DNA from: a bacterium
Lineage (GTDB): Bacteria > UBA9089 > JASEGY01
Assembly (NCBI GenBank): GCA_040753085.1
Contig: JBFMHI010000004.1
Span: 1 to 63,116 of the forward strand
Direction: 5' to 3'
Length of the DNA: 63,116 bases
The notes below the pieces were generated by a model. It ran no database searches and had not been told where the DNA came from. It worked only from the letters and a program-made list of their open reading frames with translations. Shown here piece by piece: positions 1,819 to 63,116 of this stretch (position 1 is its first letter; every line of letters starts with the position of its first letter). The position numbers and the translations under genes are program-made.

Positions 1819-2282
1819 ATGATTGAACAAATACGCGCCAGGATTCAGGCAGGACAATTCGAGTTCTCAAAGCACGCCGTTGACCAAAGCGTCCTCCGTC
1901 GTAACCGTTCAGGTATAGCTGCACGGATTAGCACGGATAAATAACACAGGACAGAAGGCGGAAGTGTAGGGACAGGGCTTGTCCCTGTCCGTGCTTGTCC
2001 ATGTCCGTTCCGTAGACGGACAACCACAAGGGTTGTCCCTACAGCCTAAGGACAGACCCGAATCACGGACACGGCTCACGGATTTTCCGTGTTTCATCTG
2101 TGTGCATCTGTGGCTGAACGGTTACCCTCCGTCAAATCAGCGTACAGGAATTGCGGGAGGCGATTGCGAATGGCGAGATTATCGAAGACTATCCAGAGGA
2201 TAAGTATGGTCCAAGTTGCTTACTGCTGAAGCGTTTACGACACGCCTGCGAGATTCGGCAGTCACTTTCGCAGAGATTGTAG
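1819..2282 (+). pseudogene. Second DUF4258 gene, split by a family A mobile element
   Basis: The 5' part (MIEQIRARIQAGQFEFSKHA...) starts at ATG 1819 and is interrupted at 1901 by a 225-bp element. Removing the element plus one copy of the 8-bp duplication CCTCCGTC joins SVLRQISVQELREAI in frame and continues through EIIEDYPEDKYGPSCLLL, a clear DUF4258 core. After LLKRLRHA the frame appears degenerate and stops at 2280-2282, so the C-terminal strand is also lost. The toxin is therefore inactivated, most visibly by transposition. This is a clean before/after example of element insertion. Confidence 0.8.
1901..2125. mobile_element. Family A MITE-like element inside a DUF4258 gene
   Basis: 225 bp with perfect 12-bp inverted ends GTAACCGTTCAG / CTGAACGGTTAC, flanked by the 8-bp direct repeat CCTCCGTC (1893-1900 and 2126-2133). 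The interior carries the 'GTAGGGACAGGG...TTGTCCCTAC' foldback module also seen at 37169, 40729, 53354 and 62880. It has no coding capacity for a transposase. Confidence 0.9.
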
Positions 2283-2295
2283 AAAGAAGAACGGT

Positions 2296-2412
2296 ATGAG
2301 CGTTACGGTTGCTCAAATGAACAGAGAGGAACTGAAAGAAATCATTTTACTGCCTCCCTTTCTGGAAAAAGTTCAAAATCTTCTTATGGATAATCTCATT
2401 GGCCGAAACTAA
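2296..2412 (+). pseudogene. Truncated VapB-like antitoxin fragment
   Basis: ATG 2296 opens MSVTVAQMNREELKEII, typical of the first residues of small VapB-type antitoxins. The frame then runs into the 3' end of the convergent phosphatase gene, giving an unrelated tail that stops at 2410-2412. It follows the broken DUF4258 toxin and is likely the remains of its partner or of another TA module. Confidence 0.4.
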
Positions 2413-3336
2413 ATAGGAGAGACCTGCTTCCGGGCCTTCCAAGAGGGGGAAATCATCCAGACCTTGGCCATAGGCGTCACTAACCATACAGCCGGCTTCT
2501 TTGGCGATGAGGTAAGAAGCAGCAATATCATAAGGACACGGACCCAGTATCTTCCCTCCCCCCAGAACCTTGGCGGTCTTGAGGCTCTCCGGGTATTCTC
2601 TGAGAAGCCGGCCGCCCACGTCCACATGGGCATCCAATTGTCCCAGCAAGATGCGACTGGTGGTGAAGGAGGAGCTGCTCAGGAGGAAGCAGGCCCCTTT
2701 AACGGCGGAGGTATCCACTAATGAACCAATAAATTGAAATAGAGGTAAACTTGGCCGTCCTACCACTTCAAAACTCCATCTTAATCTCTCCATATCCTGA
2801 TTAGAAGAGAGCACCACCGGGATTTCTTCCTGGTTAGGGAATATCTGGGCAGCGCCTCCGCTCCCCTGCTCCTGTGCTCCCCGGCTCCTTTGTGCCTGAC
2901 AGTGGAATATCTTTGTGCCTTTACCTCTTTCAGCCCAAAAAAGGCGATCCCCTTTTATCTCCTTCAGACAGCCGTATTTAATATCTTTAAACGCCGGCTT
3001 CTCCTTCCGGTAATCAGCCAGGGCCACAGAGACGCAAGCGGCTTCAAAACCTACGGCCGCCGGCCGCGAGCCATCAACCGGGTCAACTACCAGGAGAAAG
3101 CGAGGCGCCGGGCCGAATTTTACCAAACCTTTGTCTTCTGAAAAGTAAGCCCAATCAGGGCCTTTATCTTTAACGCACTCATAAAGGATCTCTTCGCCTA
3201 TCTCATCAATCCGGAAGGTAGGATCGCCGCTGGCCGCCCACCCGGTGATTTCTCTGGCTGAAGCCTGGCCCAGATAAGGACTGACCGCAGACCATATCTT
3301 CTCAGTTAGAATTAACACCACATCCTTTTCGTTCAT
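2347..3336 (-). CDS. Inositol monophosphatase-family phosphatase
   Basis: A 329-residue protein of the Mg-dependent, Li-sensitive phosphatase superfamily. The metal-binding signature DPVDGS lies near residues 86-91, the upstream acidic metal ligand region near RIDEIGEEI, and the C-terminal signature as CPYDIAASYLIAKEAG. Members hydrolyse inositol phosphate, fructose-1,6-bisphosphate or PAP; the substrate cannot be told here. A low-complexity stretch (QAQRSRGAQEQGSGGAAQ, around residues 147-164) comes from a CT-rich word repeat at about 2855-2905 and looks like an in-frame repeat insertion. The gene stands alone, convergent with the TA debris, preceded by a GGGAGAGGTGG-type ribosome site. Confidence 0.75.
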   Translation of the reverse strand: MNEKDVVLILTEKIWSAVSPYLGQASAREITGWAASGDPTFRIDEIGEEILYECVKDKGPDWAYFSEDKGLVKFGPAPRFLLVVDPVDGSRPAAVGFEAACVSVALADYRKEKPAFKDIKYGCLKEIKGDRLFWAERGKGTKIFHCQAQRSRGAQEQGSGGAAQIFPNQEEIPVVLSSNQDMERLRWSFEVVGRPSLPLFQFIGSLVDTSAVKGACFLLSSSSFTTSRILLGQLDAHVDVGGRLLREYPESLKTAKVLGGGKILGPCPYDIAASYLIAKEAGCMVSDAYGQGLDDFPLLEGPEAGLSYLVSANEIIHKKILNFFQKGRQ

Positions 3337-3381
3337 TACCCCACCTCTCCCCCCTACCTTGAGTATAACTTAAAAAATCCC

Positions 3382-3429
3382 GCTAACTATTCAGCCACTG
3401 ATTAACACGGATTAGCACGGATAAAATAA
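3382..3429. repeat. Family A left-end remnant
   Basis: CTAACTATTCAGCCACTGA followed by the CACGGATTAGCACGG interior word matches the left half of family A elements such as 7903. No matching right end is present; a family B element begins 2 bp later. Confidence 0.5.
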
Positions 3430-3431
3430 TT

Positions 3432-3665
3432 CGACCTGTACGGTTAGGCTGAGCCTTGAAAACCGCTAAAGCGGTTATGATTCTATATGTTGTCTTATTC
3501 GCATCACCCTGATAAATCAGGGTGCTAATCTCAGTAGAAATGGGGATATTAATCTCGCTAGAAATGAGGAGATGATGAGAATAGCACCCCGATTTATCGG
3601 GGTGAATCGGTAGAGAACAAGTCCACCTCCTAACCGCTTCAGCGGTTTTTTAACCAGACAGGTTG
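3432..3665. mobile_element. Family B element, eroded right end
   Basis: The left end CGACCTGTACGGTTAG is intact; the right end reads AACCAGACAGGTTG, a decayed copy. The interior (AACCGCTAAAGCGGTT and CACCCTGATAAATCAGGGTG hairpins) is nearly identical to the element at 9010. No duplication is readable. It occupies a gene-free 750-bp stretch together with the next element. Confidence 0.8.
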
Positions 3666-3734
3666 CCTTTTTTGAATCTGTAAACGAGCCGTGCATTTCA
3701 TAGCCAGAAATATGCCAACTCTGCCGAAAAAAAC

Positions 3735-3997
3735 CGACCTGTACGGTTAGGAATTACAAGCAATTTCCCTCAAACCTGAAAGGTTTGAATTTTACATAAC
3801 CACAGGTGAACCCTGCGAAAACGAAACATCTACCACAGCTCAACCCTGAAAGGGTTGAATTCTATGTGATGGATAATATTCGACCCTTGCAGGGTCGAGC
3901 GTTGCAGGTGTATTTATCTTCCGTAGCTTGCATCTACGGCTATTTAAAATTTGACGCTTTCAGCGTCAGTAGTCTACAACCTTAACCGTACAGGTCG
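3735..3997. mobile_element. Family B element with a different interior
   Basis: Perfect ends CGACCTGTACGGTTAG and its complement (TTAACCGTACAGGTCG). The interior has a series of short hairpins (AACCTGAAAGGTTTGAAT, AACCCTGAAAGGGTTGAAT, CGACCCTTGCAGGGTCG). The flanks are AAAAAAAC (3727-3734) and A plus AAAAAAAC (3998-4006), consistent with an 8-bp duplication in an A-tract. Confidence 0.8.
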
Positions 3998-4089
3998 AAA
4001 AAAAACTTGAACATCGAGTAACAAACCCCGACCTGGGCCTACCAATTAACCCCGAATGGACACGAATACAGTTCCATTTTGTCTACCTC

Positions 4090-5253
4090 TTACAGATAAT
4101 TCTCTTCCAGATATGCCTTCCTCTCTTTAGCCTTATTAATCCACTTACTATTAGGATATTCGTGGATAAGCCTGCCGTAAGCCTCAACCGCTTTTTTGTA
4201 ATCCCTGGTTTCATAAACCCGGTCGTAAAGTTCCCCCATATTAAAGAGGGCCTGTTCCGCCTCCGGGGTATGGGGATGGTTCGCTACTACCTTATGATAT
4301 TCGGCTAAGGCCTGTCGATAGTCTTTTAGTTTTCGATAGCTATCAGCCACGCCCATTTGCGCCTCAGGCGCCAGAGAACTGGCCGGATAAAGATCAAGCA
4401 AACGGAGGTATTCCAGCCTGGCATTTACGTAATCTTCTTTGGCATAATTAGAGTGGGCGATCAGAAGCTGGGCATCGTCCAGTAGATTACTTTGGGGATA
4501 ACTGTCCTTAATATCCTCGGCGGTAGTAATGGCCGCATCAAAGGCCTTATTGTCGAATTGACACTGGGCTATTCCAAAGGTGGCCTTATCTAACAGTTTA
4601 CTTTTGGGATAGTTGCTGATTAACCGCTCATATTCGGTTATGGCTTGATCGCATAACTTCCTTCGATACAGATCCTCAGCCAGATTGAACTGTTCCTGAT
4701 CCTCCGGCACCTTTAAGCCTTCTTCCACCGGTTCTTCCGGTAACTCTTTTCCCCCTATCGGCCGGGGCTTGAGAGGCAGCTCTTCTTCCTTCAAGGGCTC
4801 TCGGACAAGGGGAAGAGGCAGGGCCTCGGTTTCTCCCTTATCCTTTACGGCTGTCTCTTTGACCGCCGTATCAGCCTCTTCAGACACAACTGTCTCTTTA
4901 ACCGCCGTATCAGGCTTTTCATAACCTGATACCTCTCCCCGCGTTTCACTGCCGACTTCTCCTTTTGTTTCCTCAACTTTTTCCCTGGCAAAGGGTGAAG
5001 CTTCCGGTTTCTCGGCTGGTCCCTTCAGTTCCTGGATCTTTTTGGATAGGGCTTCTTCAAAGGCTTCTCTGGCCTTAAGATTGGCCGGATCTTCCTTTAA
5101 AATTTGACCAAGGATGACCAGAGCGCGCTCATACTTCCTTTCTCTAAGGTAACTTAACCCCTCCTCCAGCGAGGCCGCTTCTTTAGCCTGGCTATATTGA
5201 GCTGAAACAGGCAGAAGGGAAATCACCACCATAATAAATAGTAATCTCTTCAT
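4090..5253 (-). CDS. Secreted TPR-repeat protein, YbgF/BamD-like C-terminus
   Basis: A 387-residue protein (from ATG 5253) with a cleavable signal peptide (MKRLLFIMVVISLLPVSAQYSQA). An N-terminal TPR pair (about residues 25-75) is followed by a charged, Glu/Pro-rich linker containing two copies of DTAVKET (about 90-180), then at least four TPR units whose helices end in YPxS/YPxSK phrases (YPKSKLLDKA, YPQSNLLDDA, YPASSLAPEA, YPNSKWINKA). This is the layout of periplasmic YbgF (CpoB) or BamD-type scaffolds acting in envelope assembly. The start overlaps the upstream gene's stop (ATGA), indicating translational coupling with the small TPR lipoprotein. Confidence 0.7.
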   Translation of the reverse strand: MKRLLFIMVVISLLPVSAQYSQAKEAASLEEGLSYLRERKYERALVILGQILKEDPANLKAREAFEEALSKKIQELKGPAEKPEASPFAREKVEETKGEVGSETRGEVSGYEKPDTAVKETVVSEEADTAVKETAVKDKGETEALPLPLVREPLKEEELPLKPRPIGGKELPEEPVEEGLKVPEDQEQFNLAEDLYRRKLCDQAITEYERLISNYPKSKLLDKATFGIAQCQFDNKAFDAAITTAEDIKDSYPQSNLLDDAQLLIAHSNYAKEDYVNARLEYLRLLDLYPASSLAPEAQMGVADSYRKLKDYRQALAEYHKVVANHPHTPEAEQALFNMGELYDRVYETRDYKKAVEAYGRLIHEYPNSKWINKAKERKAYLEENYL

Positions 5254-5651
5254 TCTTTCTCCATCCATAATTCTTCATTTTCTACTTCCGGGACAGAGAT
5301 ATTCTTCAGGCTGGGATCAAGCTTGATGGCCTGGATGTAAGCATTAATCGATTCCGTGTCCTTACCCATATCCTCATATACTCTTCCCAATTCCAGGTGA
5401 AGATAAGCGTCTTTAGGATCGAGTTTGACTGCCTCCTCCAGGACGCTGACCGCCTCCTCATAATCTCCGGCCAGATAGTAAAGTTCGGCTTTTTTTATGT
5501 AATCATCTTTAGTTAATGGAGCTTTCCGGCTCTCTGGCTTAACCCCCGTCTCTTCCTGTGGCCCGCATCCTCTGCAACCCCAGAATCCACCGATCAGGAT
5601 TAAGCTCAGGACCAGTCCGACTATCCACCACCAGCTATTATTACTACTCAT
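5250..5651 (-). CDS. Small membrane-anchored TPR protein
   Basis: A 133-residue protein with an N-terminal hydrophobic segment (WWWIVGLVLSLILIGGFWGC) that could be a membrane anchor or lipoprotein signal ending at Cys26. Two TPR units follow (DYIKKAELYYLAGDYEEAV, then HLELGRVYEDMGKDTESI). It lies directly upstream of the larger TPR protein and overlaps it by 4 bp, so the two are probably made together as an envelope scaffold pair. The specific role is unknown. Confidence 0.65.
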   Translation of the reverse strand: MSSNNSWWWIVGLVLSLILIGGFWGCRGCGPQEETGVKPESRKAPLTKDDYIKKAELYYLAGDYEEAVSVLEEAVKLDPKDAYLHLELGRVYEDMGKDTESINAYIQAIKLDPSLKNISVPEVENEELWMEKE

Positions 5652-5677
5652 GTCTTGTCTCCTCTTCTATTTTTTTT

Positions 5678-5839
5678 GTATCTATTCAGCCACGAAGACA
5701 CTAAGACACATACGTGTCTTCGTGCCTTGGTGGCTGAACGGTTACAAAACTTTTTTGCTCTGTTGCTCTCTACGACACATACATTTTAATAAGTGGCACA
5801 ATACTTTGTGCCTTCGTGCCTTAGTGGCTGAATAGTTAC
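5678..5839. mobile_element. Family A element, eroded and composite
   Basis: Left end TCTATTCAGCCACGAAG, an internal right end GGCTGAACGGTTAC at 5745, and an outer right end GGCTGAATAGTTAC ending at 5839. The arms (CACGAAGACACTAAGACAC / GTGTCTTCGTGCC) can fold back. The flanks are T-rich and no clear duplication is seen. It separates the TPR pair from the Gx transporter gene. Confidence 0.6.
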
Positions 5840-6366
5840 TATATTTTTTCAAAGCCGGTTATACCCTGCTCCGCTAAACCATTAATCAATTGAGTCGCTA
5901 TCCAGCCATTAAACAGGCCGGTAATGGTAGAAAGAATAAGTAAAAAAGGCAATTGAATAAAGATACCGATATGTTTGACCAGAATAAGATAAACGAGGCC
6001 AATTTGAATCAGACTGTGAGTTATCGCCCCGATCACACTGATCATCATCAAAGAAAGCCCCGGATAAAACCATCTTAAGCTGAACCCCATAATTCCTGCG
6101 CTGCCGAGGCCGCCTGATATACTGAGGATAAAAGCAGGTCCCAGTAAGGTGCCGCTTACCAGACCTCCCAGGATACATCGCATAATAGTTACGATCATTC
6201 CTCCCCTTAGGCCAAAAACCACCAGGGCTAAGATGGTGACTATATTAGCCAGCCCCAGCCTGATCCAGAGAACAGGGGTAAAGATAAGGGCTTCTATCGT
6301 ATGAAGAATGACGGCTAAAGAAGTGAGCAGGGCCATTCTGGTTATTTGGTTAGGCTTAAGTCTCAT
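5839..6366 (-). CDS. Gx transporter family membrane protein (heptaprenyl synthase component I-like)
   Basis: About 175 residues, almost wholly hydrophobic with five or six predicted membrane segments (MALLTSLAVILHTIEALI, IVTILALVVFGLRGG, LSLMMISVIGAITHSLIQIGLVYLILV, LPFLLILSTITGLFNGW). The pattern GLANIVTILALVVFGLRGG and a Gly-rich middle segment (ILGGLVSGTLLGPAFILSISGG) are typical of the Gx transporter family, often encoded next to apbE and RnfG-like genes, as here. It may transport a redox cofactor precursor, but the substrate is unproven. ATG 6366 is chosen; an in-frame start at 6381 is possible. A mobile element ends 17 bp upstream. Confidence 0.7.
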   Translation of the reverse strand: MRLKPNQITRMALLTSLAVILHTIEALIFTPVLWIRLGLANIVTILALVVFGLRGGMIVTIMRCILGGLVSGTLLGPAFILSISGGLGSAGIMGFSLRWFYPGLSLMMISVIGAITHSLIQIGLVYLILVKHIGIFIQLPFLLILSTITGLFNGWIATQLINGLAEQGITGFEKI

Positions 6367-6383
6367 TATATCAATTATCAATT

Positions 6384-6477
6384 GTAACTATTCAGGTAGA
6401 TAGGCTGAAGGCTGAAGGTGGAAGGCTTTTAGGGACAGCCTTCAGCCTTCAGCCTTCAGTCTATGCTGAACGGTTAC
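6384..6477. mobile_element. Family A element with GGCTGAAGG foldback interior
   Basis: 94 bp, GTAACTATTCAG left end and CTGAACGGTTAC right end. The interior is a word repeat (AGGCTGAAGG...CCTTCAGCCTT) that folds into a near-complete hairpin. No 8-bp duplication is readable. A sister copy lies at 28491-28595. Confidence 0.75.
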
Positions 6478-6483
6478 CAAGGG

Positions 6484-7458
6484 CTAATTATTAGTCATTC
6501 TTGACGAAGTTATAACTTTCCCCGCCGGGGTAACGATAATTCCTTCTATTCCTTCAAGCTGCTCGATGAGTTTCATCCCTTCAATGGGGCCGGCAATAAA
6601 TACAGCCGTAGCCGCTACGTCTGCCTCAATGCAGGTCGGTGCAGTGATAGTGACACTAATACATTCGCCGGCCGGATAACCCGCTCGAGGATCGATTATA
6701 TGGTGATATCTGGCTCCATCTTTGATAAAGAAACGCTCATAATCTCCTGAAGTAGCTACGGATGAATCCTTCAGTTCCACCACCGTCAAAATCTTATCCT
6801 CTCTCGGATGTTGAACGCCTATCCTCCAGGGTTTTCCCTTATGGTTTCGACCTATCGTCCTTATATCTCCGCCGGCATTGACCAATCCGTGGGTAATGCC
6901 TTTTTTAACCAGGACATCAATAGCTCGGTCCACCGCGTATCCCTTGGCTACCCCACCTAAATCGAGTTTCATCCCGGGCTCAAGGGCGCATTGCCACCCC
7001 TCATCTCCCGCCGCTCGTCTCTCAATGGCCACTCTTTTATAATCCACCAGCGATAGGGCCGACTTAAGCCGGTCTTTAGGCGGAAGTTTATAAGGTGGCG
7101 CCTGTTTGAAATCCCATAATTCGGTTACCGGGTCAATGGTTACATCAAACAGTCCATTGGTTAGTTCAGAATACTTGATCGATGTTTTTAGCACCTCCAT
7201 GAGTTCAGGGCTGATCTCTTGGGGGGTCTCACCCAACCGGGAAGGCTCGCTTTCCGGTCCTTTACCCAGAAGGGTCTCGATTCTTTTCATTTCAGAGAAG
7301 GCCGCCTTGATGGCCTCATCCGCTTTCTTTCTATCCTGATCCACTACCTTTATTTCCACTAAGGTATCCATCAGGGAATTGGTCCTGACTATTAGTTCCT
7401 TTTGACACCCGGTGATGAAAATAATTCCTATTATGAGGCAATATAGACAGTTTAGCAT
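6484..7458 (-). CDS. apbE: FAD:protein FMN transferase, lipoprotein form
   Basis: A 324-residue ApbE-family protein that attaches FMN to a Thr or Ser in flavoproteins such as RnfG/NqrC. A lipoprotein signal is visible (IIGIIFITGC, Cys18), so it acts in the periplasm. Family signatures include LFDVTIDPVTELWDF (about 103-117), the FAD-binding LDLGGVAKGYAVDRA (about 166-180), NAGGDIRTIG, SVATSGDYERFF and HHIIDPRAGYPAG. Length is normal. It is followed, after one mobile element, by the Gx transporter gene, a partnership recurrent in redox-complex gene sets, although no rnf genes lie in this window. Confidence 0.9.
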   Translation of the reverse strand: MLNCLYCLIIGIIFITGCQKELIVRTNSLMDTLVEIKVVDQDRKKADEAIKAAFSEMKRIETLLGKGPESEPSRLGETPQEISPELMEVLKTSIKYSELTNGLFDVTIDPVTELWDFKQAPPYKLPPKDRLKSALSLVDYKRVAIERRAAGDEGWQCALEPGMKLDLGGVAKGYAVDRAIDVLVKKGITHGLVNAGGDIRTIGRNHKGKPWRIGVQHPREDKILTVVELKDSSVATSGDYERFFIKDGARYHHIIDPRAGYPAGECISVTITAPTCIEADVAATAVFIAGPIEGMKLIEQLEGIEGIIVTPAGKVITSSRMTNN

Positions 7459-7704
7459 AGCGTGACCTCCTAGCCACCCTCAAAGAACAACCTAACGGTT
7501 GTCGTAGGTGTTCCCTAACTTTCATGGTGCCCTTATAATTCTCGCCGATAACACCAATGTTGCGGGGTAATACTATACTAAGCATAGTTTACGCCTAAGG
7601 ATAGAAGTTGTCAAGTTATAAATTACTTTTTTGTAAGGCTAATTGTATCTGCTTAGCCACCAGGACACGAAGACACAAAGATTACAGAAAATTTAAGAAG
7701 GTGC

Positions 7705-7733
7705 TTGACAAGTATCCGGGGGTATGTTATACT
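7705..7733 (+). promoter_or_regulatory. Sigma70-type promoter for tRNA-Val
   Basis: TTGACA (7705-7710), 17-bp spacer, TATACT (7728-7733). The tRNA begins 18 bp after the -10 box. Confidence 0.8.
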
Positions 7734-7751
7734 ACTGGTCGATGAAATCAA

Positions 7752-7827
7752 GGGCGGTTAGCTCAGTTGGGAGAGCGCATGCGTCACATGCATGAGGTCA
7801 CAGGTTCAAGCCCTGTACCGCCCACCA
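7752..7827 (+). tRNA. tRNA-Val(CAC)
   Basis: A 76-nt cloverleaf with encoded CCA. The acceptor GGGCGGT pairs with ACCGCCC; the D-loop contains AGCTCAGTTGGGAGAGC; the anticodon stem CATGC/GCATG closes the loop GTCACAT, giving anticodon CAC (Val, codon GTG); the T-arm is CAGGTTCAAGCCCTG. A consensus promoter sits directly upstream. Confidence 0.95.
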
Positions 7828-7835
7828 ACTTAACT

Positions 7836-7893: not shown

Positions 7894-7902
7894 AAAGAGG
7901 GG

Positions 7903-8283
7903 GTAACTATTCAGCCACTGATTGACACGGATTAGCACGGATAAAATAGAATGAGTTTAGTAAGTGTTCAGCCACAAAGACACTAAGACACAAAGATTAA
8001 AGAATTATTTCTTAATAGCTCAACAGAGCAGTAGCCCAGTAGTTAAAGACTTTTCTGAAAGTTCCAGAAGTGCTGCTCTATTGCTCTACTGCTTTCTAAG
8101 GCACATACTTTTTAATAAGTAGCACATTAAAATTGATTAAAAACCAGACTCCTTTTTACCACGAAGACACAAAGAGACTAAATTCATAAATAATTTCCCC
8201 TTCGTGTCTTCATGCCTTGGTGGCTGAAGGGTTACCAAAAAAATCAGTGTTTCATCCGTGTAAATCTGTGGCTGAATAGTTAC
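7903..8283. mobile_element. Family A element carrying a nested family A element
   Basis: Ends GTAACTATTCAG and CTGAATAGTTAC, flanked by AAGAGGGG on both sides (7895-7902 and 8284-8291). A second element (7960-8235) sits inside. The duplicated AAGAGGGG supplies the ribosome site of the next gene, whose TTG start is 15 bp downstream. Confidence 0.9.
7960..8235. mobile_element. Nested family A element with ACACAAAG arms
   Basis: Left end GTAAGTGTTCAGCCAC, right end GTGGCTGAAGGGTTAC. The arms carry the AAGACACTAAGACACAAAG word and its complement. It interrupts the older element at 7903; no TSD is readable. Confidence 0.7.
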
Positions 8284-8298
8284 AAGAGGGGTAAGGAA

Positions 8299-9009: not shown

Positions 9010-9243
9010 CGACCTGTACGGTTAGGCTGAGCCTTGGAAACCGCTAAAGCGGTTATGATTCTATATGTTGTCTTATTCGCATCACCCTGATAAATCAGGG
9101 TGCTAATCTCAGTAGGAATGGGGATATTAATCTCGCTAGAAATGAGGAGATGATGAGAATAGCACGCCGATTTATCGGGGTGAATCGGTAGAGAACAAGT
9201 CCACCTCCTAACCGCTTCAGCGGTTTCTTAACCATACAGGTCG
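9010..9243. mobile_element. Family B element at the stop codon of the zinc-ribbon gene
   Basis: CGACCTGTACGGTTAG left end and TTAACCATACAGGTCG right end. Flanks AAAAATAA (9002-9009) and AAAAATAG (9244-9251) match at 7/8, and the left copy contains the gene's TAA. The interior is almost identical to 3432-3665. Confidence 0.85.
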
Positions 9244-12922: not shown

Positions 12923-13111
12923 GTAAGCGTTCAGCCACTAAACCGCTAAAGCGGTTGCTTGGGTTTATTAGTATTCCCCCATTCACCCTGATAAATCGGG
13001 GTGCTATTCTCAGGCTTATTGAGTTTAGCACCCTGATTTATCAAGGTGTTACGGATAGGATAACATCTAGAATCATAACCGCTTTAGCGGTTTCAACCCC
13101 TGAACGGTTAC
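12923..13111. mobile_element. Family A element with the CACCCTGATAAATC interior
   Basis: Left end GTAAGCGTTCAG, right end CTGAACGGTTAC, flanked by GAATAATC on both sides (12915-12922, 13112-13119). The interior (AACCGCTAAAGCGGTT, CACCCTGATAAATC) is the same module as in family B elements at 3432 and 9010. It ends 19 bp before the GH57 start. Confidence 0.93.
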
Positions 13112-14891: not shown

Positions 14892-15231
14892 GTAACCGTT
14901 CAGTCCTTTTTTGTCGTAAGGGAAGAGGAGGTAGTAGAGAGAGCGGATAATGTGCTCATGATAATTGCGTTACCAAAAACGCCCACGAAACCGCGGCCAG
15001 TCGAGAGTTCTAACGCCACGGATGTATTCAACCGTCGTCAACGATTTAAAGGCGCCAACCACGTCACCCACTGTAGGGGCAACCCTTGTGGTTGCCCCTG
15101 TGGTTGCCCTGTCATTTTGGGCAAGGGGTTGGGCACCCACAAGGGGTGCCCCTACGATTAAAATCTGTGTCATCCGTGTGCTATTCTATCATTCTCTTCG
15201 TGGCTTAGTGGCTTTGTGGCTGAACGGTTAC
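14892..15231. mobile_element. Family A element, 340 bp
   Basis: GTAACCGTTCAG and CTGAACGGTTAC ends; TCCGAAAC repeats on both sides (14884-14891, 15232-15239). The interior includes a GTAGGGGCAACCC/GGGTGCCCCTAC foldback and a CGTGGCTTAGTGGC word. Confidence 0.93.
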
Positions 15232-15251: not shown

Positions 15252-15408
15252 GTAACTATTTAGCCACAAAGATACGAAGACATTAAGATTATAGAAGCCA
15301 ATAGGCAATAGGGCATTCTTCCCTCTTGCCTATTGGCTATTGGTTATTGGCTCTTGCCTATTGCCTTTGTGTCTTAGCGTCTTAGTGTCTTTGTGGCTGA
15401 ATAATTAC
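15252..15408. mobile_element. Family A element 13 bp upstream of atpG
   Basis: Left end GTAACTATTTAG, right end CTGAATAATTAC; AAGGAGAA on both sides (15244-15251, 15409-15416). The duplicated AAGGAGAA is the atpG ribosome binding site. The interior is a CCAATAGGCAATAG foldback word. Confidence 0.93.
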
Positions 15409-28490: not shown

Positions 28491-28595
28491 GTAACTATTC
28501 AGGTAGATAGGCTGAAGGCGTTTAGGCTGAAGGTGGAAGGCTTTTAGGGACAGCCTTCAGTCTTCAGTCTTCAGCCTATCTACCTGAGTAACTAC
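28491..28595. mobile_element. Family A element with GGCTGAAGG interior
   Basis: GTAACTATTCAGG left end, CCTGAGTAACTAC right end; the interior is the AGGCTGAAGG foldback seen at 6384. The flanks GGAGAGAG and AGAGAGGT share AGAGAG, a possibly shifted duplication. It ends 18 bp before the next start. Confidence 0.75.
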
Positions 28596-34685: not shown

Positions 34686-34867
34686 CGACCTGTATGGTTA
34701 GCTTAACCTTACTCACATCTTTTAAAAACCACGAAGAACACGAAGAACACGAAGGACACCACGAAGATTTTTTTAATCACATTTACCTTACCCTTAATTA
34801 CTTTCTTCGTGAACTTTGTGCTCTTCGTGGTTTATCTTTGCTTTTCCCTACCTAATCATACAGGTCG
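34686..34867. mobile_element. Family B element with ACGAAGAACACGAAG arms
   Basis: CGACCTGTATGGTTAG left end and CTAATCATACAGGTCG right end; CAAGATTT on both sides (34678-34685, 34868-34875). The arms hold the CCACGAAGAACACGAAG word and its complement. Confidence 0.93.
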
Positions 34868-37168: not shown

Positions 37169-37389
37169 GTAACCGTTCAGCCACAGATGCACACAGATGA
37201 AACACGGAAAATCCGTGAGCCGTGTCCGTGATTCGGGTCTGTCCTTAGGCTGTAGGGACAACCCTTGTGGTTGTCCGTCTACGGAACGGACATGGACAAG
37301 CACGGACAGGGACAAGCCCTGTCCCTACACTTCCGCCTTCTGTCCTGTGTTATTTATCCGTGCTAATTCGTGCATACCTGAACGGTTAC
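37169..37389. mobile_element. Family A element, GGGACAGGG type
   Basis: 221 bp, GTAACCGTTCAG / CTGAACGGTTAC; GCCTAATT on both sides (37161-37168, 37390-37397). Inverse orientation of the 1901 copy. Ends 21 bp before the GT gene start. Confidence 0.95.
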
Positions 37390-40728: not shown

Positions 40729-40975
40729 GTAACCGTTCAGGTATGCACGAATTAGCACGGATAAATAACACAGGACAGAAGGCGGAAGTGTAGGGACAGG
40801 GTTTGTCCCTGTTCGTGAGGGACAGGGCTTGTCCCTGTCCGTGCTTGTCCATGTCCGTTCCGTAGACGGACAACCACAAGGGTTGTCCCTACAGCCTAAG
40901 GACAGACCCTAATCACGGACACGGCTTACGGATTTTCCGTGTTTCATCTGTGTGCATCTGTGGCTGAACGGTTAC
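40729..40975. mobile_element. Family A element, GGGACAGGG type
   Basis: 247 bp, GTAACCGTTCAG / CTGAACGGTTAC. Flanks TATTAACC (40721-40728) and AATTAACC (40976-40983) match 7/8; the left copy contains the TAA of the polyprenyl synthase. The interior carries an extra GGGACAGGGTTTG repeat. Confidence 0.9.
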
Positions 40976-43696: not shown

Positions 43697-43739
43697 TTCA
43701 GACCCAAGGATTAAGAATTAGGTTATGAATAGAAATAAC

Positions 43740-43916
43740 GTAAGCGTTCAGCCACTAAGGCACAAAGACACAACCTCGATCCTCGATCCTGGATGCTCGA
43801 TGCTGGATGCTCGATCCTGGATACTGAATCCTTTACCAGCATCGAGCATCCAGCATCGAGCATCCAGCATCGAGCATCCAGCATCGAGCATCCAGGATCA
43901 TGTGCTGAACGGTTAC
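43740..43916. mobile_element. Family A element with CTCGATG interior
   Basis: GTAAGCGTTCAG / CTGAACGGTTAC; GAAATAAC on both sides (43732-43739, 43917-43924). The interior is the CTCGATGCTGGATG heptamer word folded around GAATCCTTTACCAGC. Confidence 0.95.
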
Positions 43917-44061
43917 GAAATAACAAGCTGTTGTAGAGGGTGCTTGTTTGGCAAGGGAATATTTATGTCGCCAATGATAGATACTGGAGGGACAACCCCC
44001 TGTGGTTACCCTTCAGACTCTTTTATGTCACAAGTTGCGTTTTTGCGGAGAGGTAGGGATA

Positions 44062-44856
44062 ATGACCACCATCTCTTTTAGCCTTGCTTTAGGGGCCTAT
44101 TTTTTAGCCAGCTTTCTTTACGGAGCTGGTATTTTTTTCCAACGGCTGGGACGAATACCTGCCTTGATTACCGGCCTTGGTTTCCTGGCCCACAGCGCCG
44201 GCCTCCTGCACCGGACCATAGAGGCTTCTCACGCCCCTTTTGCCAACCTTTATGAATCTATGATCTTCTTTTCCTGGGCCATCGTCCTTACTTCCCTTGT
44301 TCTGGAGTTTAGGCTCAAGACACGGATCCTGGGGGTAGTTACCACCCCCCTTGCCTTTCTGGCCATTGCTTCAGCCTCAATGCTGCCTGACCATTATAAA
44401 GAGATCACCCCCCTCATACCCGCCCTTCAGAGCTATTGGCTGGAAATCCATGTCATAACCTGCTTCCTGGGCTACGGCGCCTTTGCCGCGGCCTTTGGCA
44501 TAAGCATCCTTTACCTAGTTAAGAAACATTCTAAAACAAACCAACTATCTCAGGAAGACCGACTGGATGAGCTGAGCTATCAAACTATCGCCATAGGCTT
44601 TCCTTTCTTAACCCTGGGAATCATCACCGGGGCTATCTGGGCCAACTATGCCTGGGGCACTTATTGGAGCTGGGACCCCAAGGAGACCTGGTCATTGATC
44701 ACCTGGCTTATTTATGCGGCTTATCTTCACGTGCGGTTAAGGAGGGACTGGCGGGGAAACAAGGCTGCCTGGCTTTCTATCATAGGTTTTGCCGCCGTAA
44801 TTTTCACTTACCTGGGGGTTAATCTTATTCTTTCCGGGCTGCATAGTTATACATAG
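44062..44856 (+). CDS. ccsA: Cytochrome c assembly protein CcsA (ResC)
   Basis: 264 residues from ATG 44062 behind GAGAGGTAGGG. About eight membrane spans. The heme-handling WWD-type signature is WANYAWGTYWSWDPKETWSLITW (residues about 203-225); conserved histidines occur in LLHRTIEASHAPFANLYES and LEIHVITCFLGYG. CcsA pairs with ResB to form the system II synthetase for c-type cytochromes. Complete length. The upstream in-frame extension (to 44002) lacks a ribosome site. Confidence 0.93.
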   Translation: MTTISFSLALGAYFLASFLYGAGIFFQRLGRIPALITGLGFLAHSAGLLHRTIEASHAPFANLYESMIFFSWAIVLTSLVLEFRLKTRILGVVTTPLAFLAIASASMLPDHYKEITPLIPALQSYWLEIHVITCFLGYGAFAAAFGISILYLVKKHSKTNQLSQEDRLDELSYQTIAIGFPFLTLGIITGAIWANYAWGTYWSWDPKETWSLITWLIYAAYLHVRLRRDWRGNKAAWLSIIGFAAVIFTYLGVNLILSGLHSYT

Positions 44857-45144: not shown

Positions 45145-45306
45145 GTAACCGTTCAGCCACCAAGGCACGAAGACACGTATGTGTCTTAGAGAGCAGTAGA
45201 GCAATAGAGCAGCAGTTCTGGAACTTTCAGAAAAGTCTTTAACTACTGCTCTGCTGCTCTACTGCTCTATTTTTGTGTCTTAGTGTCTTTGTGGCTGAAT
45301 ACTTAC
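45145..45306. mobile_element. Family A element
   Basis: GTAACCGTTCAG / CTGAATACTTAC; GGATAAGA on both sides (45137-45144, 45307-45314). Arms carry the GGCACGAAGACACG word and GAGCAGTAGAGC hairpin. It lies next to the inverted-repeat element just upstream. Confidence 0.95.
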
Positions 45307-53353: not shown

Positions 53354-53550
53354 GTAACTGTTCAGCCACTGATTAACACGGATTAGCACAGATAAATAAC
53401 AGAGGACAGAAGGCTGAGTTGTAGGGACAAGGCTTGTCCCTGTCCGTTCCGTAGGCGGACAATTGTCCCTACAACCTTAGTTGCAGGAAAATACGCCGTA
53501 GCGGGATTTTTCCGTGTTTCATCTGTGTGCATCCGTGGCTGAACGCTTAC
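53354..53550. mobile_element. Family A element, GGGACAGG type
   Basis: GTAACTGTTCAG / CTGAACGCTTAC; AAGATTAG on both sides (53346-53353, 53551-53558). 197 bp with the shared GGGACAAGGCTTG module. Confidence 0.95.
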
Positions 53551-55121: not shown

Positions 55122-55124
55122 AAA

Positions 55125-57407: not shown

Positions 57408-57497
57408 AAAGTTCTTCTGCCAAAAAATGGCTGGACATCTGGAGGTTGATGTGGTATACTTTTCACGAGATAGAGATTTGAGATAGAGAAGGCGTTG

Positions 57498-57532
57498 CAC
57501 CTGACCAAAACCGCAAGCGGTTTTGGCAGGTG
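57498..57532. other. Hairpin with a bulged A, attC-like centre
   Basis: CACCTGACCAAAACCGC pairs with GCGGTTTTGGCAGGTG, leaving one unpaired A, like an attC L-box stem. No R'/R'' boxes were found (flanks GGCGTTG and AACTTTGTTGTTC), so integron origin is uncertain. It precedes a TA module. The rest of 57408-57715 shows no gene. Confidence 0.35.
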
Positions 57533-57715
57533 AACTTTGTTGTTCTACTCTTCGCTTTGCTGCGGGGAGAACAAGGCACGGGAGACAGATGCCCCTTCAG
57601 GGCGACCACTCAGTGCCGCATTAGCGTGCTTCTTAGCGAGCAAGGCAAGAATACATTACGCATGTAAGTGAGAGTACAACAAGCAGAGGAGAGAAGCCTT
57701 TGAGGAGAAATACGT

Positions 57716-58024
57716 ATGCTTCAGTTACAATTAGACGTTCAACCACAGACCGAGCAACGGCTCAAAAAACTGCTCCAAGTTATCCCTGATCAAGAACAGT
57801 TTGCCCAAAATCTGCTGGACTATCAGGTGGCCGAGTTCAAGAAGAGTCTTCTCAATCTTCGTCTGGATCTCCAGCAGTTTGAAGAGACCTATCACCTCAG
57901 CACCGAGGAGTTTTATCAGCAATTTCAAGCTGGAATCCGCGATGATCGGGAAGACTATATGGTCTGGGCAGGACTTTATGAACTGTTGTGTGAGAATGAA
58001 CAACGCCTGCGAGAGCTGACATGA
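57716..58024 (+). CDS. TumA-like antitoxin
   Basis: 102 residues, mostly helical (LQLQLDVQPQTEQRLKKLLQVIPDQEQFAQNLLDYQVAEFKKSLLNLRLDLQQFEETYHLSTEEFYQQFQAGIRDDREDYMVWAG). The 'FEETYHLSTEEFYQQFQAG…DDREDYMVW' core parallels the antitoxin at 51659. It overlaps the downstream DUF6516 toxin by 4 bp (ATGA). Preceded by GAGGAG. Unlike the copy at 51.7 kb, both partners look intact here. Confidence 0.7.
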   Translation: MLQLQLDVQPQTEQRLKKLLQVIPDQEQFAQNLLDYQVAEFKKSLLNLRLDLQQFEETYHLSTEEFYQQFQAGIRDDREDYMVWAGLYELLCENEQRLRELT

Positions 58025-58440
58025 TTGACACCTATTTTACCGAGTTGGAACAGCTGCTCCAGCAAGGGGTCCCGATCCGGTCGTATAGCCTCAAGAAAAA
58101 GGTGTATAATACCAAATATGGCTGTATAAGGGGGACGATTGTGTTTGAACAGGGCACACAGTTAGACTTTATGGAAGTCAAAAATACCGATGTCTCGGCC
58201 AAAATCAAATATCGGTATCACTATATGACGAGTCAACAAGCGTTGATCTTTCGGTACGATAATGCCCCGCATCATCGGCAGTTGAAGACCTTTCCGCATC
58301 ATAAACATCTCCCCCAGGGCGAGCAGGAAAGTGACGAGCCGACGTTAGAAGCGGTGTTATTCGAAATTGCCCAACACGAACGGAAGAAGGGGAGACAAGA
58401 TCGTTGCCAGACTGAGAACATTGGGGACGGTTCAAAATAG
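58021..58440 (+). CDS. DUF6516 (TumE-like) toxin
   Basis: 139 residues, of which about 130 are native: MIDTYFTELEQLLQQGVPIRSYSLKKKVYNTKYGCIRGTIVFEQGTQLDFMEVKNTDVSAKIKYRYHYMTSQQALIFRYDNAPHHRQLKTFPHHKHLPQG. The RYDNAPHHR and FPHHKHLP motifs are characteristic of DUF6516, a toxin family that cleaves RNA. The last ~6 residues (GDGSK) are encoded by the left end of a family C element. The core motifs are complete, so the toxin could be active. Confidence 0.8.
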   Translation: MIDTYFTELEQLLQQGVPIRSYSLKKKVYNTKYGCIRGTIVFEQGTQLDFMEVKNTDVSAKIKYRYHYMTSQQALIFRYDNAPHHRQLKTFPHHKHLPQGEQESDEPTLEAVLFEIAQHERKKGRQDRCQTENIGDGSK

Positions 58441-58779
58441 TCCATTTTCTTGTGAAACCTTGCGACCTGTAGTGAGCTTTTAGCCCCGTAGGGGCGATAT
58501 ATTTATAGCGAGATGCCAACACTTACATCTCAAGCCCCGTAGAGGCGATATATGTAAGAACATATCGCTCCTACGGAGCTTTAACCTTTAACATGGTTCT
58601 GCCTGGGGAACTATAAATATTCCGCCCCGCTGGGGCTATTGTCGATAATTTTTAGAGCCTATCCCAAAACCTCTCCAGTGTGACCAGAAGCCGAGTTTCT
58701 TCAAGAAACCAGGTTTCTATCGCGGAGGTTTTGGGATAGGCCATTAGTCGCAAGCTTTCACAGCAAGGTGAACCGTCCC
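58424..58779. mobile_element. Family C element carrying a family D element
   Basis: GGGACGGTTCA / TGAACCGTCCC, interior nearly identical to the ptsI copy, interrupted at 58655 by a TA-bounded family D element. No 8-bp duplication readable at the outer ends. Confidence 0.85.
58655..58744. mobile_element. Family D element nested in the family C element
   Basis: 90 bp between TA dinucleotides (58653-58654, 58745-58746); GCCTATCCCAAAACCTC and its complement near each end. The ptsI copy of the host element reads TTTTTAGTCGC without it, so this is an insertion. Confidence 0.85.
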
Positions 58780-58869
58780 AACTTAACCCATAGTACTATA
58801 ATCTGTAATGAGCTTACTTTTTTAACTTGATTTTGAGTAGATACCTTACCCCGAATTATTGAGAAGATA

Positions 58870-58942
58870 GTAAGTGTTTAGCCACAAAGACACATCCTTT
58901 TTTTCCCTTCGTGTCTTCGTGCCTTGGTGGCTGAACGGTTAC
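58870..58942. mobile_element. Short family A element
   Basis: 73 bp, GTAAGTGTTTAG / CTGAACGGTTAC; flanks AGAAGATA (58862-58869) and AGAAGATC (58943-58950), 7/8. Interior is the CACAAAGACAC / GTGTCTTCGTGCC foldback. Confidence 0.88.
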
Positions 58943-58954
58943 AGAAGATCCAGG

Positions 58955-59089
58955 GTAAGCGTTCAGCCACTAAGGCACAAAGACACAACCTCGATGCTCG
59001 ATCCGGGATACTGGCTCCTTTACCAGCATCGAGGATCGAGCATCGAGGATCGAGCATCGAGAATCCAGTATCATGTGATGAACGGTTAC
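58955..59089. mobile_element. Family A element 19 bp upstream of gyrA
   Basis: GTAAGCGTTCAG left end; right end ATGAACGGTTAC; GATCCAGG on both sides (58947-58954, 59090-59097). Interior CTCGATG heptamer word with the TCCTTTACCAGC loop, as in 43740. Confidence 0.95.
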
Positions 59090-59108
59090 GATCCAGGAGT
59101 TATAATCT

Positions 59109-61550
59109 ATGGAGATCACGGAACGAATCGTCCCGGTATATATCGAGGACGAGATGAAGAATTCTTATATTGATTATGCCATGAGCGTAATTGTCGGCCG
59201 GGCTTTGCCTGATGTGCGAGATGGGCTGAAGCCGGTGCATCGCCGCATCCTTTACGCCATGAACGAGATGGGGTCAACCCATGATAAGCCCTACCGTAAG
59301 TCGGCCAGGATCGTGGGTGAAGTCCTGGGTAAATATCATCCTCACGGTGATATGGCTGTTTATGACACTATGGTCAGGATGGCCCAAGACTTTTCCTGCC
59401 GCTATCTTCTAATTGATGGTCAGGGCAATTTTGGTTCTGTTGACGGTGATTCCCCGGCGGCCATGCGTTACACTGAAAGCCGATTGACGGCCATAGCTGA
59501 AGGCCTGTTAGAAGATATAGATAAGGAAACGATCAATTTTGTCCCCAACTTCGATGAGAGTTTAAAAGAACCTACAGTCTTGCCGGCCAAACTCCCTCAT
59601 TTACTTTTGAACGGCTCTTCCGGAATAGCCGTGGGTATGGCCACCAATATCCCCCCTCATAACCTGCCTGAATTGATAAGCGCTATTGTCCGCTTGATTG
59701 ATGAGCCGGAGATAGAGGAAAATGAGTTTATCTCCCTTATTTCCGGCCCGGACTTCCCTACCGGCGGCATCATATTTGGCCGGGAAGGGATAAGAGAGGC
59801 ATATACTACCGGCCGCGGAAAGATTGTCCTTCGGGCCAGGGCCGAGATCGAAGAGGTAAAAGGGGGCCGAGAGAACATTATTATTACTGAAATCCCCTAT
59901 CAGGTTAATAAGGGACTTCTCCTTAAAAAGATCGGCGAGTTGATTCAGACCAAGGGGGTGGAAGGTTTGAGTGACCTCAGAGATGAATCGGATCGGGAAG
60001 GAATGAGGATCGTTATCGAACTCAAAAAGGGTGCTCCAACCAACATCATTCTTAATCAACTTTATAAACATACCCCCCTGCAAGTTACCTTTGGGGTGAT
60101 TATGCTCGCCCTGGTTAATAATTACCCCAAGATTCTGACCTTAAAGGAGATGGTTTATGCCTTCCTCCAGCATCGCCGGGAAGTGGTCAGAAAGAGAACC
60201 GAATACGAGCTGAGGGTGGCTGAGGCCAGGGCCCATATCCTGGAAGGACTTAAAGTGGCCCTGGCTAATTTGGATGCAGTCATTCAGCTTATCCGCGCAT
60301 CTAAGACCACTAAAGAGGCCAAAGAAGGCTTGATCAGAGAATTTGCCCTCTCTGAAAAACAGGCCCAGGCCATCTTAGAGATGCAGCTTCAGAGATTGAC
60401 CGGTCTGGAACAGGAAAAGATCGAAAAAGAATATTTAGCCTTAATCAAGGAAATAGCCAGGCTGAAATTTATTCTGGAAAATCCCAGGGAGATCGATCTT
60501 ATCATCAGAGAAGAATTGCTTGAAATAAAAAAAACTTACGCTGATGGCCGAAGGACGCAGATCGTGGACGCCACCTCGGAGCTTAGTGTGGAAGACCTGA
60601 TTCCTGAAGAAGATATGGTCATCACTATCTCTCATACCGGCTACATCAAACGGCTGCCGGTAACCACCTATCGCAAACAAAGAAGAGGCGGAAAAGGCAT
60701 CACCGGGATGGAGACCAGAGAGGAAGATTTTGTAGAATATCTCTTCATCGCTTCCACCCACGATTATATCCTCTTTTTTACCAATAAGGGCAAGGTTTAC
60801 TGGTTGAAGGTTCATGCGATTCCTCAGGCAGGAAGGACGGCGCGGGGCACACCCGCGGTCAACCTTATCCGGATTGAAAAGGGGGAAAGAATCAGCGCCT
60901 TTATCCCTATTCATCAGTTTACGCCTGATGATTATTTAGTCATGGCCACCAGGCAGGGATTAGTTAAAAAGACAGCCCTTTCGGAATATTCCAGACCCAG
61001 ACCGAGTGGGATTATTGCCATTACCCTGGAAGAAGGAGACGAGTTGGTGGGCGTAGAGTTGACTGAGGGGCATCAAGAAATACTTTTAGCCACCAGGACC
61101 GGTAAAAGCATTCGATTCCCCGAGACAGACGTTCGGCCTACGGGGCGGGCTTCCCGTGGAGTAAGAGGAATTCGCTTTGGGGTCCGAAAAGATGAGGTAA
61201 TAGGCATGGAGGTGGTCGGGTCTGAAATGACGCTGGTTACCGTGACGGAGCAGGGGTTTGGCAAGCGGACGGACCTGTCTGAATATCGCACCCAGGCCAG
61301 GGGAGGCCAAGGAATCATTAACATCAAGATCACTCCCCGCGGCGGAGAGGTAGCCGGCATCCTTGAGGTGGATAATGACGACGAGTTGATGATAATTACC
61401 CAGAGTGGGATGGTTATTCGTTTAGCCGTCGAGGGGATGCGTCCGATGGGCAGAGCCACCCAGGGGGTGTCTGTTATTCGCTTAAAGGAAAATGACCGGA
61501 TTACTTCGGTAGCCAAGGTAGTGGGAAAGAAGGAAGAAGAGGAAGTTTAA
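59109..61550 (+). CDS. gyrA: DNA gyrase subunit A
   Basis: 813 residues. Breakage-reunion domain: [25 protein letters not shown], the drug-binding region [17 protein letters not shown] (Met82 at the position of E. coli Ser83), catalytic Tyr121 in [10 protein letters not shown]. The C-terminal pinwheel contains six GyrA-type blades and the GyrA-box QRRGGKG (near residue 520), which separates gyrase from topoisomerase IV. It introduces negative supercoils together with GyrB, which is not in this window. Met82 is a difference from the common Ser. It has a family A element 19 bp upstream. Confidence 0.97.
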
Positions 61551-61782
61551 AATGATCTTCGATGTTAATTATAGCAAAACCTACACTTCTGGTTACCATT
61601 TGACCATTTGCCATAATAAAAACTAAATCTTTTTTTTCACGCTTAACGCCTATACTATTGAGTATTTCAGTTAAAACCCATGTATACTCACTACCTGTAT
61701 CAACAAGTATTTTAGGTATACGAACGCTCTTTTTTCTGTTAATATGATTTCTAATTGTACACCCTGTGTAAAAAGTCCCCAT
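61501..61782 (-). pseudogene. Retropepsin-like aspartic protease, truncated
   Basis: 93 residues on the minus strand from ATG 61782, preceded by GGAGG. The core PKILVDTGSEYTWVL holds the aspartic protease DTG motif (about 26-30), followed by a flap-like part ([25 protein letters not shown]). Clan AA proteins of this kind are usually about 120 residues; the C-terminal domain with ψ-loop is missing and the last ~20 residues run antisense into gyrA. It was probably truncated by a rearrangement next to gyrA. Confidence 0.6.
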
Positions 61783-61809
61783 AAAACCTCCTTCTTTTTT
61801 TCCTGCTTT

Positions 61810-62658
61810 TCATTCCGCAATCCACCTTCCGCCAGGTTCATTCCGCCACTCGAAATCTGCCTTCCGTAATCGCTCTACCATCTCATCTGAAATTACCCGC
61901 TCTCCGATCATTATTCTCCCCTTACCCAGACCATGACAATCAGAACCTCCGGTAATTAATAGCCCGTATTTCTCAGCCAGACATCGATAATGTTCCTCTA
62001 TATCCGGAGGATGTTCCGTATGGTAGGCCTCCAGCCCTGCTAATCCTTCTGAAATAAGTTGGGGGATAAATTCATCACCATCGAGGGTGCCAGGATGAGC
62101 CAGGACAGGCAAACCACCAGCCGTTCGGATAATCTGGATGGCCTGCCTCGGAGAAATATGATATTTAGGCACATAACAGGGGCCGTTCTGGCCGATGTAT
62201 TGAAAGGCCTCAGCCGTGGAGTCCACTATTCCCGCCTCACGCATCACGGTGGCCACATGCAGCCGGCCAATACAGCCCCGCCCGGCCAGCTCTTTAATCC
62301 GGTTAAAAGAAATTCTTGGCCCGAGTTTAGCCAATTTTTCAACTATTTTCTGAGCCCTTTGGTAGCGGGTTTCCCTGAAAGTCCTGAGATAAGTCCGTAA
62401 CGATTCGCTGTTCTGGTCGATAAAATACCCCAGCATGTGGATTTCTCTCTTGAGGGTATCGGCGGATAATTCTACGCCGGGTATGACATATAAACCGTAT
62501 TGTTCTCCCCAATAATTGGCTTCACTTATACCATCAATGGTATCGTGATCAGTAATAGCAATAGTAGAAAGCCTGCGTCGGCAGGCCTCCTCGACTATCT
62601 CCCTGGGAGAAAGGGTAGAATCAGAAAAGTAGGTATGTATGTGTAGATCTGCTGGCAT
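61810..62658 (-). CDS. PHP-domain phosphoesterase
   Basis: 282 residues from ATG 62658. PHP metal motifs: MPADLHIHTYFSDSTLSP (first cluster), IAITDHDTIDG (second), PVLAHPGTL and GSDCHG. The layout matches the YciV/RnmA-type or RNase AM-like PHP phosphoesterases (3',5'-nucleoside bisphosphate phosphatase family). The substrate is uncertain. The frame is open to 62793, but only through CTCGATG words, so the PHP start is used. The opposing gyrA lies 260 bp away. Confidence 0.85.
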   Translation of the reverse strand: MPADLHIHTYFSDSTLSPREIVEEACRRRLSTIAITDHDTIDGISEANYWGEQYGLYVIPGVELSADTLKREIHMLGYFIDQNSESLRTYLRTFRETRYQRAQKIVEKLAKLGPRISFNRIKELAGRGCIGRLHVATVMREAGIVDSTAEAFQYIGQNGPCYVPKYHISPRQAIQIIRTAGGLPVLAHPGTLDGDEFIPQLISEGLAGLEAYHTEHPPDIEEHYRCLAEKYGLLITGGSDCHGLGKGRIMIGERVISDEMVERLRKADFEWRNEPGGRWIAE

Positions 62659-62684
62659 TCTTTTTTTTCCTGTTAGGTAACCGT

Positions 62685-62744
62685 GACTCGATGCTCGATG
62701 CTCGATATTGGACCCTTCACCTTCCTCGAGCATCGAGCATCGAG
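62685..62744. repeat. CTCGATG foldback word
   Basis: CTCGATGCTCGATGCTCGAT and GAGCATCGAGCATCGAGG fold around TTGGACCCTTCACC. A lone GTAACCGTGA (62677) resembles a decayed family A left end. Confidence 0.6.
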
Positions 62745-62825
62745 GAATAATCGCCTGCGTTTTTAGTCTAACATCTTTTTGAGGAAATGTCAACCAAATG
62801 CTTGATCCCCCAGGTGTGAAAAATG

Positions 62826-63116
62826 GTAATTATTCAGCCACTGATTGACACGGATTAGCCCGGATAAAATAGAATGAGTGTAACCGTTCAGCCACAGATG
62901 CACACAGATGAAACACGGAAAATCCGTGAGCCGTGTCCGTTGATTCGGGTCTGTCCTTAGGCTGTAGGGACAGCCCTTGTGGTTGTCCATCTACGGAACG
63001 GACATGGACAAGCACGGACAGGGACAAGCCCTGTCCCTACACTTCCGCCTTCTGTCCTGTGTTATTTATCCGTGCTAATCCGTGCAGCTATACCTGAACG
63101 GTTACGAATGAGTTTA
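62826..63116. mobile_element. Family A outer element, interrupted by another copy and by the window edge
   Basis: GTAATTATTCAGCCACTGA then the CACGGATTAGC word, the same sequence as the outer element at 7903. The element at 62880-63105 sits inside it; sequence resumes as GAATGAGTTTA at 63106, the same bases as 7949-7958. Confidence 0.85.
62880..63105. mobile_element. Family A element nested in a family A element
   Basis: 226 bp, GTAACCGTTCAG / CTGAACGGTTAC, GGGACAGGG type, flanked by GAATGAGT on both sides (62872-62879, 63106-63113). Without it the host sequence reads as in the 7903 copy. Confidence 0.95.

Follow-up and report, generated by a model that had tools for sequence, protein, structure and literature searches.

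IS66-type miniature elements in a bacterial contig, many of them probable gene-less shells of GxxExxY-carrying elements

A 63,116-nucleotide bacterial contig (JBFMHI010000004.1, C4 in our numbering) is dotted with short elements that have similar 12-bp ends and carry no transposase gene, which raises two questions: what moves them, and where did their interiors come from? We refer to this contig as the window; it was analysed at its full length and belongs to a 3.05-Mb genome assembled in 250 contigs (L and G numbers below are our handles for loci and genomes). We propose, with a probability of about 0.86, that the elements are miniature inverted-repeat transposable elements (MITEs) of the single-transposase-gene (ISBst12-like) group of IS66, and that many are gene-less shells of elements that carried a gene of the GxxExxY family. 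Briefly, the transposase TnpC, supplied in trans, would recognise little beyond the outermost 12 bp (GTAACCGTTCAG or a variant of it) and insert the element into A+T-rich intergenic DNA, leaving an 8-bp duplication. A large part of the population would go back to elements in which ~9-bp quasi-repeats formed inward-facing arms on either side of a GxxExxY cargo gene. This gene would have been lost by deletion from within, and the ends and arms would have remained and multiplied.

Ends, target duplications and TnpC elements

A sequence-only reading of the window had listed eleven elements with perfect 8-bp direct repeats (at 1901, 7903, 12923, 14892, 15252, 37169, 43740, 45145, 53354, 58955, and 62880), two more with 7/8 matches (40729 and 58870), and no transposase gene in any copy. 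We reproduced all of these repeats and likewise found no transposase gene in the window copies. The copies are not all separate, however: 7960-8235 lies within 7903-8283, 62880-63105 lies within a shell that begins at 62826, and 58955 sits in the duplicated flank of 58870. Perfect 8-bp matches occur at 11 of the 25 end pairs in the window; with one flank shifted at random, 2000 trials gave 0.03 such matches on average and never more than 2. We extended the census by genome-wide pattern counts and by reading 432 kb in full (the window and 20 further stretches), which yielded 131 pairs of a left and a right end within 1.5 kb. Perfect flank matches in this sample numbered 31 at length 8, none at 5, 6, or 7, one at 9, none at 10, one at 11, and none at 12, and 12 more pairs matched at length 8 with one mismatch. 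The target site duplications (TSDs) thus exceed the expectation for random 8-mers. Across the whole genome, GTAACCGTTCAG with at most one mismatch occurs 649 times, versus 15 for a reversed-pattern control.

The 12-bp ends read roughly GTAA[CGT][CT][GA]TT[CT]AG. Elements between them are 33-555 bp long, lack a transposase, and have inverted ends and a TSD, as MITEs do, with 43 TSD-bearing elements in the 432 kb read. Counting TSDs with up to one mismatch, both flanks fall outside open reading frames (ORFs) of at least 100 amino acids for 31 of 43 elements, in a sample that is 78% coding; perfect TSDs are 68% A+T, against 53% overall. Next to 55 of 86 ends we found what we call CC-type arms (e.g., CCACAGATGCACACAGATG or CCACTAAGGCACAAAGACAC), which are degenerate units of ~9 bp that face inward from both ends; GTA... 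follows 14 of 86.

The link to IS66, previously drawn from the likeness of ends and TSDs, is supported by TnpC elements with the same ends. Within the phylum, an intact TnpC gene (PF03050; 468 amino acids) lies between GTAACCGTTCAC ends at L042, and a TnpC gene of 473 codons with two in-frame stops (PF03050) lies between GTAACCGTTCAG ends at L043. Both elements are ~1.5 kb long with one gene each and no tnpA or tnpB, as in the ISBst12 group, and their proteins are 40% identical. The left end of L043, GTAACCGTTCAGGTATAGCT, is common to window elements over 20 identical bases, and the GTATAGCT end of the window element 1901..2125 is identical to one end of L043 at 20 of 20 bp. The search for a full IS66 element with these ends therefore succeeded in relatives within the phylum, but the genome's own assembly holds no intact copy. 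Further afield, TnpC elements with GTAACCGTTCAC ends and perfect 8-bp repeats occur in Acidobacteriota (L093, ATCCATTT) and Omnitrophota (L095, AATTCTTT), and one in Bacteroidota has ends GTAATTATTTAGCAGC and the 8-bp repeat AAAAAAAC (L116). A genome of another phylum, G105, contains five short elements with perfect TSDs and one further element next to a TnpC gene; the left end of the TnpC gene has 14 bp in common with the short elements. ISDge4, an ISBst12-group IS66 element caught in the act of transposing, has matching ends (GTGACTACTCAGCA / GTAACTGCTCAGCA) and an 8-bp repeat, CCTCGATG (PMC12898284). We rejected L041 as a partner transposase; it encodes an IS66 TnpC and lacks these ends. 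Weak PF03050 matches at L051 and L059 likewise have no such ends nearby.

GxxExxY genes, their arms, and the proposed emptied shells

Within the phylum, GxxExxY profile matches peak in the genomes richest in ends: 65 in G013, 55 in G018, and 21 in the window's own genome (all fragments), with 0-9 in the other genomes. Outside the phylum, G105 has both the most fused ends (20) and the most GxxExxY matches (12). In the own genome, G013, and G018, 26 of 58 GxxExxY loci are closely bracketed by a left and a right IS66-type end, and in nine of these 26 a perfect 8-bp repeat spans the whole gene-containing unit (L182 and L183 in the own genome; L197, L201, L203, and L208 in G013; L213, L227, and L228 in G018). 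Intact genes among the end-bracketed loci include L197 (126 amino acids) and L213 (132 amino acids), both assigned to TIGR04256. Matches to this profile that also contain the GxxExxY motif had E values of 3.6e-47, 8.8e-38, and 6.8e-43.

The window holds an emptied version of such a unit. At either end, L183 (TSD GTTCTCTG), in which a GxxExxY fragment persists, aligns with the corresponding outer half of the window shell 7903-8283 (+ strand). This shell, flanked by the TSD AAGAGGGG, consists of a CCACTGATTGACACGGATTAGCACGGATAAA arm, the first codons of the gene (ATGAGTTTA) with nothing of the remainder, and a right arm, and it hosts a nested element (7960..8235; ends GTAAGTGTTCAG / GTAACCCTTCAG; TSD not clear). 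Less closely, the 225-bp family (1901, 37169, 40729, and 62880) aligns with the same arms as L183 and 7903. The element L087, also in the own genome, reads as the beginning of a GxxExxY protein enclosed by CCACAGAGACACGGAG arms and ends of the GTAACCGTTCAC type. A second copy of the 7903 shell begins at 62826; its left half (62826..62879, +) is interrupted at the start codon by the 226-bp element 62880..63105, whose TSD, GAATGAGT, covers the ATG of the shell.

Similar arms accompany GxxExxY genes beyond IS66-type ends. At 27 GxxExxY loci in 27 genomes, mostly outside the phylum and without such ends, an inward-facing arm motif was present upstream at 15 and downstream at 16, with 13 loci having it on both flanks, against a background of 6 of 376 strand-windows; the motif was written after examples had been seen, so the rate is descriptive. 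A window element with a second, unrelated type of end, 34686-34867 (CGACCTGTATGGTTAG / CGACCTGTATGATTAG), contains ACCACGAAGAACACGAAG arms. Its halves align with both flanks of a G018 GxxExxY gene (L168; scores of 51 and 34 against at most 27 in the control), and it also aligns with the own-genome GxxExxY remnants L186 and L188. The same kind of cargo unit thus occurs inside two unrelated end types, and the arms belong to GxxExxY and not to IS66. That GxxExxY recurs in several end types and with varying arms speaks for a function tied to the arms.

We aligned 25 GxxExxY homologues and found 13 invariant positions (G25, G27, E30, Y33, Y58, D69, E79, K81, Q93, Y97, N110, F111, and R120). These include the residues of the name-giving motif (G27, E30, and Y33) and a D..ExK..Q active site of PD-(D/E)XK type (D69, E79, K81, and Q93). 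A PDB sequence search found no sequence relative. The structure model (predicted local distance difference test score, pLDDT, 95.8) resembles Cas4-type proteins and lambda-type exonucleases most among solved structures, with SSO0001 (4ic1), the Cas4 protein Pcal_0546, and LHK-Exo as best matches. An invariant cysteine, as would bind the iron-sulphur cluster of Cas4, was sought in the alignment and not found; the protein is hence Cas4-like rather than a Cas4. We predict a minimal PD-(D/E)XK nuclease akin to Cas4 and lambda exonuclease, which may be active now or may have been so formerly.

Three side observations concern these genes and the second end family. Inverted repeats with ends CGACCTGTACGGTTAG / CTAACCGTACAGGTCG occur in the window at 34686-34867, 9010-9243, 3735-3997, and 3432-3665, with a perfect 8-bp TSD (CAAGATTT) at 34686 and 7/8 matches at 9010 and 3735. 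Four GxxExxY genes of G013 (L193, L195, L196, and L206) have the outer flank TTCGACCTGTGAAATAGG, which is like that family. In G018, the 3' end of another ORF, of 124 codons, contains the start of a GxxExxY element with GTAACCGTTCAG ends (L143, 1127-1501).

Weighing the explanations

Several points count against an IS66-mobilised population of GxxExxY shells. A PF03050 profile search found no match in the own genome, although in an assembly of 250 fragments absence is not proven, and none in one congeneric genome. Protein searches of the own genome returned only two short decayed TnpC pieces, one of them in a short segment flanked by GTAACCGTTCAC-like ends. Neither L042 nor L043 has a clear TSD, the latter moreover being a pseudogene. 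As for cargo, many interiors, made of CTCGAT-type or GGCTGAAGG-type repeats, contain no GxxExxY sequence. Direct support for a shell origin, from aligned sequence, is limited to the 7903/L183-type, 225-bp, and 34686-type families, and for the other CC-type arms (those at 55 of 86 ends) such an origin is suggested.

The scarcity of transposase genes could mean that another 8-bp-duplicating family made the elements and that the likeness of the ends is convergence. In its favour, the own and congeneric genomes lack an intact IS66 gene, and L042 and L043 lack clear TSDs. We nevertheless regard it as very improbable: TnpC elements of several phyla agree with the ends at 11-12 of 12 bases, those at L093 and L095 having perfect 8-bp duplications as well, all 20 compared bases are common to L043 and window ends, and in G105, of another phylum, TnpC and MITE ends are paired once more. 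Least probable of all, in our judgement, is a bystander effect, in which genomes full of repeats would have MITEs inserted close to many genes, GxxExxY included. About half of the GxxExxY loci in G013 and G018 are indeed without paired IS66-type ends, but the tight bracketing of 26 of 58 loci, the nine exact duplications around gene-containing units, and the presence of the same shell in the window with its gene missing speak against it.

A different possibility is that GxxExxY and its arms are mobile in their own right, the nuclease acting on the arms to drive capture or movement and IS66-type ends serving as one vehicle of several. In unrelated genomes, GxxExxY genes have arms in the absence of IS66-type ends (13 of 27 loci show the inward-facing motif on each side), several arm types occur within the same ends, and such arms recur in the second end family of the window; the invariant D..ExK and Q and the confident Cas4-like model would also fit. 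We think this unlikely nonetheless. The 8-bp TSDs adjoin the transposon ends and not the arms, arm-only loci gave neither a target duplication nor an empty site, and IS66 TnpC elements without arms have the same ends and TSDs. Shells have also multiplied in the own genome, where no intact GxxExxY gene was found, so GxxExxY is not required for shell transposition. A wider proposal, which we hold only tentatively and consider rather doubtful, is that GxxExxY with inward arms is an unrecognised mobile module across many bacterial phyla, whose nuclease would act on the arms and join unrelated transposon ends, and whose gene-less remains would be the window MITEs. We prefer IS66-type MITEs, many of them GxxExxY shells.

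Further window elements and relation to known systems

The remaining elements illustrate the range of the population (a strand is assigned only to the two shells described above). The 225-bp element at 1901..2125 has ends GTAACCGTTCAGGTATAGCT / GTAACCGTTCAGCCACAGAT and TSD CCTCCGTC. Two others of its family are the 221-bp element at 37169..37389 (TSD GCCTAATT), the one representative folded, which forms a strong hairpin as DNA (-50.5 kcal/mol, z -6.5), and the 247-bp element at 40729..40975 (TSD 7/8, TATTAACC/AATTAACC). Elements of 189 bp (12923..13111, TSD GAATAATC) and 340 bp (14892..15231, TSD TCCGAAAC) precede one of 157 bp (15252..15408) with arms CCACAAAG and TSD AAGGAGAA. Insertion of the last one duplicated a target that resembles a ribosome-binding site and lies directly before a gene start, which may affect expression. 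The second-family element at 34686..34867 runs from CGACCTGTATGGTTAG to CTAATCATACAGGTCG with GxxExxY-type arms (ACCACGAAGAACACGAAGAACACGAAGG) within. An ORF (43725-44081) runs through the 177-bp element at 43740..43916 (TSD GAAATAAC). Arms are evident in the 162-bp element at 45145..45306 (CCACCAAG / CCACAAAG; TSD GGATAAGA) and the 197-bp element at 53354..53550 (CCACTGATTAACACGGAT / CCACGGATGCACACAGAT; TSD AAGATTAG). A minimal element of 73 bp (58870..58942; TSD 7/8, AGAAGATA/AGAAGATC) has the 135-bp element 58955..59089 (TSD GATCCAGG) in its duplicated flank. Interiors of other short quasi-repeats (CTCGATCC, GGCTGAAGG) lie between ends of the same type at 43740-43916, 58955-59089, 6384-6477, and 28491-28595. 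Some TSD-less elements (L171, L087, and L043) stand between flanks that are nearly reverse complements (e.g., CTAATTTT / AAAATTAA), which hints at insertion into short A+T palindromes. An Rfam search of the window returned two tRNAs only, and the elements thus belong to no known RNA family.

What appears new here, and is supported by the sequence comparisons, is that elements carrying GxxExxY, once emptied, left many of the IS66-type MITEs as their shells. The cargo gene is a member of the GxxExxY family (TIGR04256; PDDEXK_3, PF13366), which is barely mentioned in the literature we searched, where two papers give the family name and one the Pfam accession, and for which we found no mobile-element context described there. 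Searches with end and arm strings returned primer coincidences or nothing, and no arm string tried was found. The reading brings together IS66-type MITEs in very large numbers, a nuclease family that is widespread yet almost unstudied, and the quasi-repeat inverted arms around its gene. By it, the arms would derive from the borders of a mobile nuclease gene, and GxxExxY would serve as transposon cargo or partner; both proposals are testable.

Among known systems, the window elements are closest at their ends to the ISBst12 group of IS66, e.g., ISDge4 of Deinococcus geothermalis (PMC12898284), with which they have in common the end type, the 8-bp duplication, and, in full-length relatives, a single TnpC-like gene. 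Unlike elements of that group, the window copies lack a transposase, have arms or cargo remnants as interiors, and number several hundred. They resemble bacterial MITEs such as the IS982-derived MITECca01 of Cardinium, present in 169 copies (PMC9769881), and ERIC and QMITE, reviewed in PMC10969869, in being short, transposase-free, mostly intergenic, and bounded by terminal inverted repeats and a target duplication. That review makes no mention of IS66-derived MITEs. The window elements differ from known bacterial MITEs in their IS66-type ends, in their very heterogeneous interiors, and in that part of them are probable remnants of a nuclease-gene cargo. Mobile insertion cassettes have a passenger gene between IS-type ends, carry no transposase, and are presumed to be mobilised in trans. 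The cassettes of Bacillus cereus (named in PMC3281130) are thus like the GxxExxY units in passenger gene, IS-type ends, and lack of a transposase; unlike them, the units described here always have a GxxExxY nuclease gene as the passenger, with inverted arms of its own.

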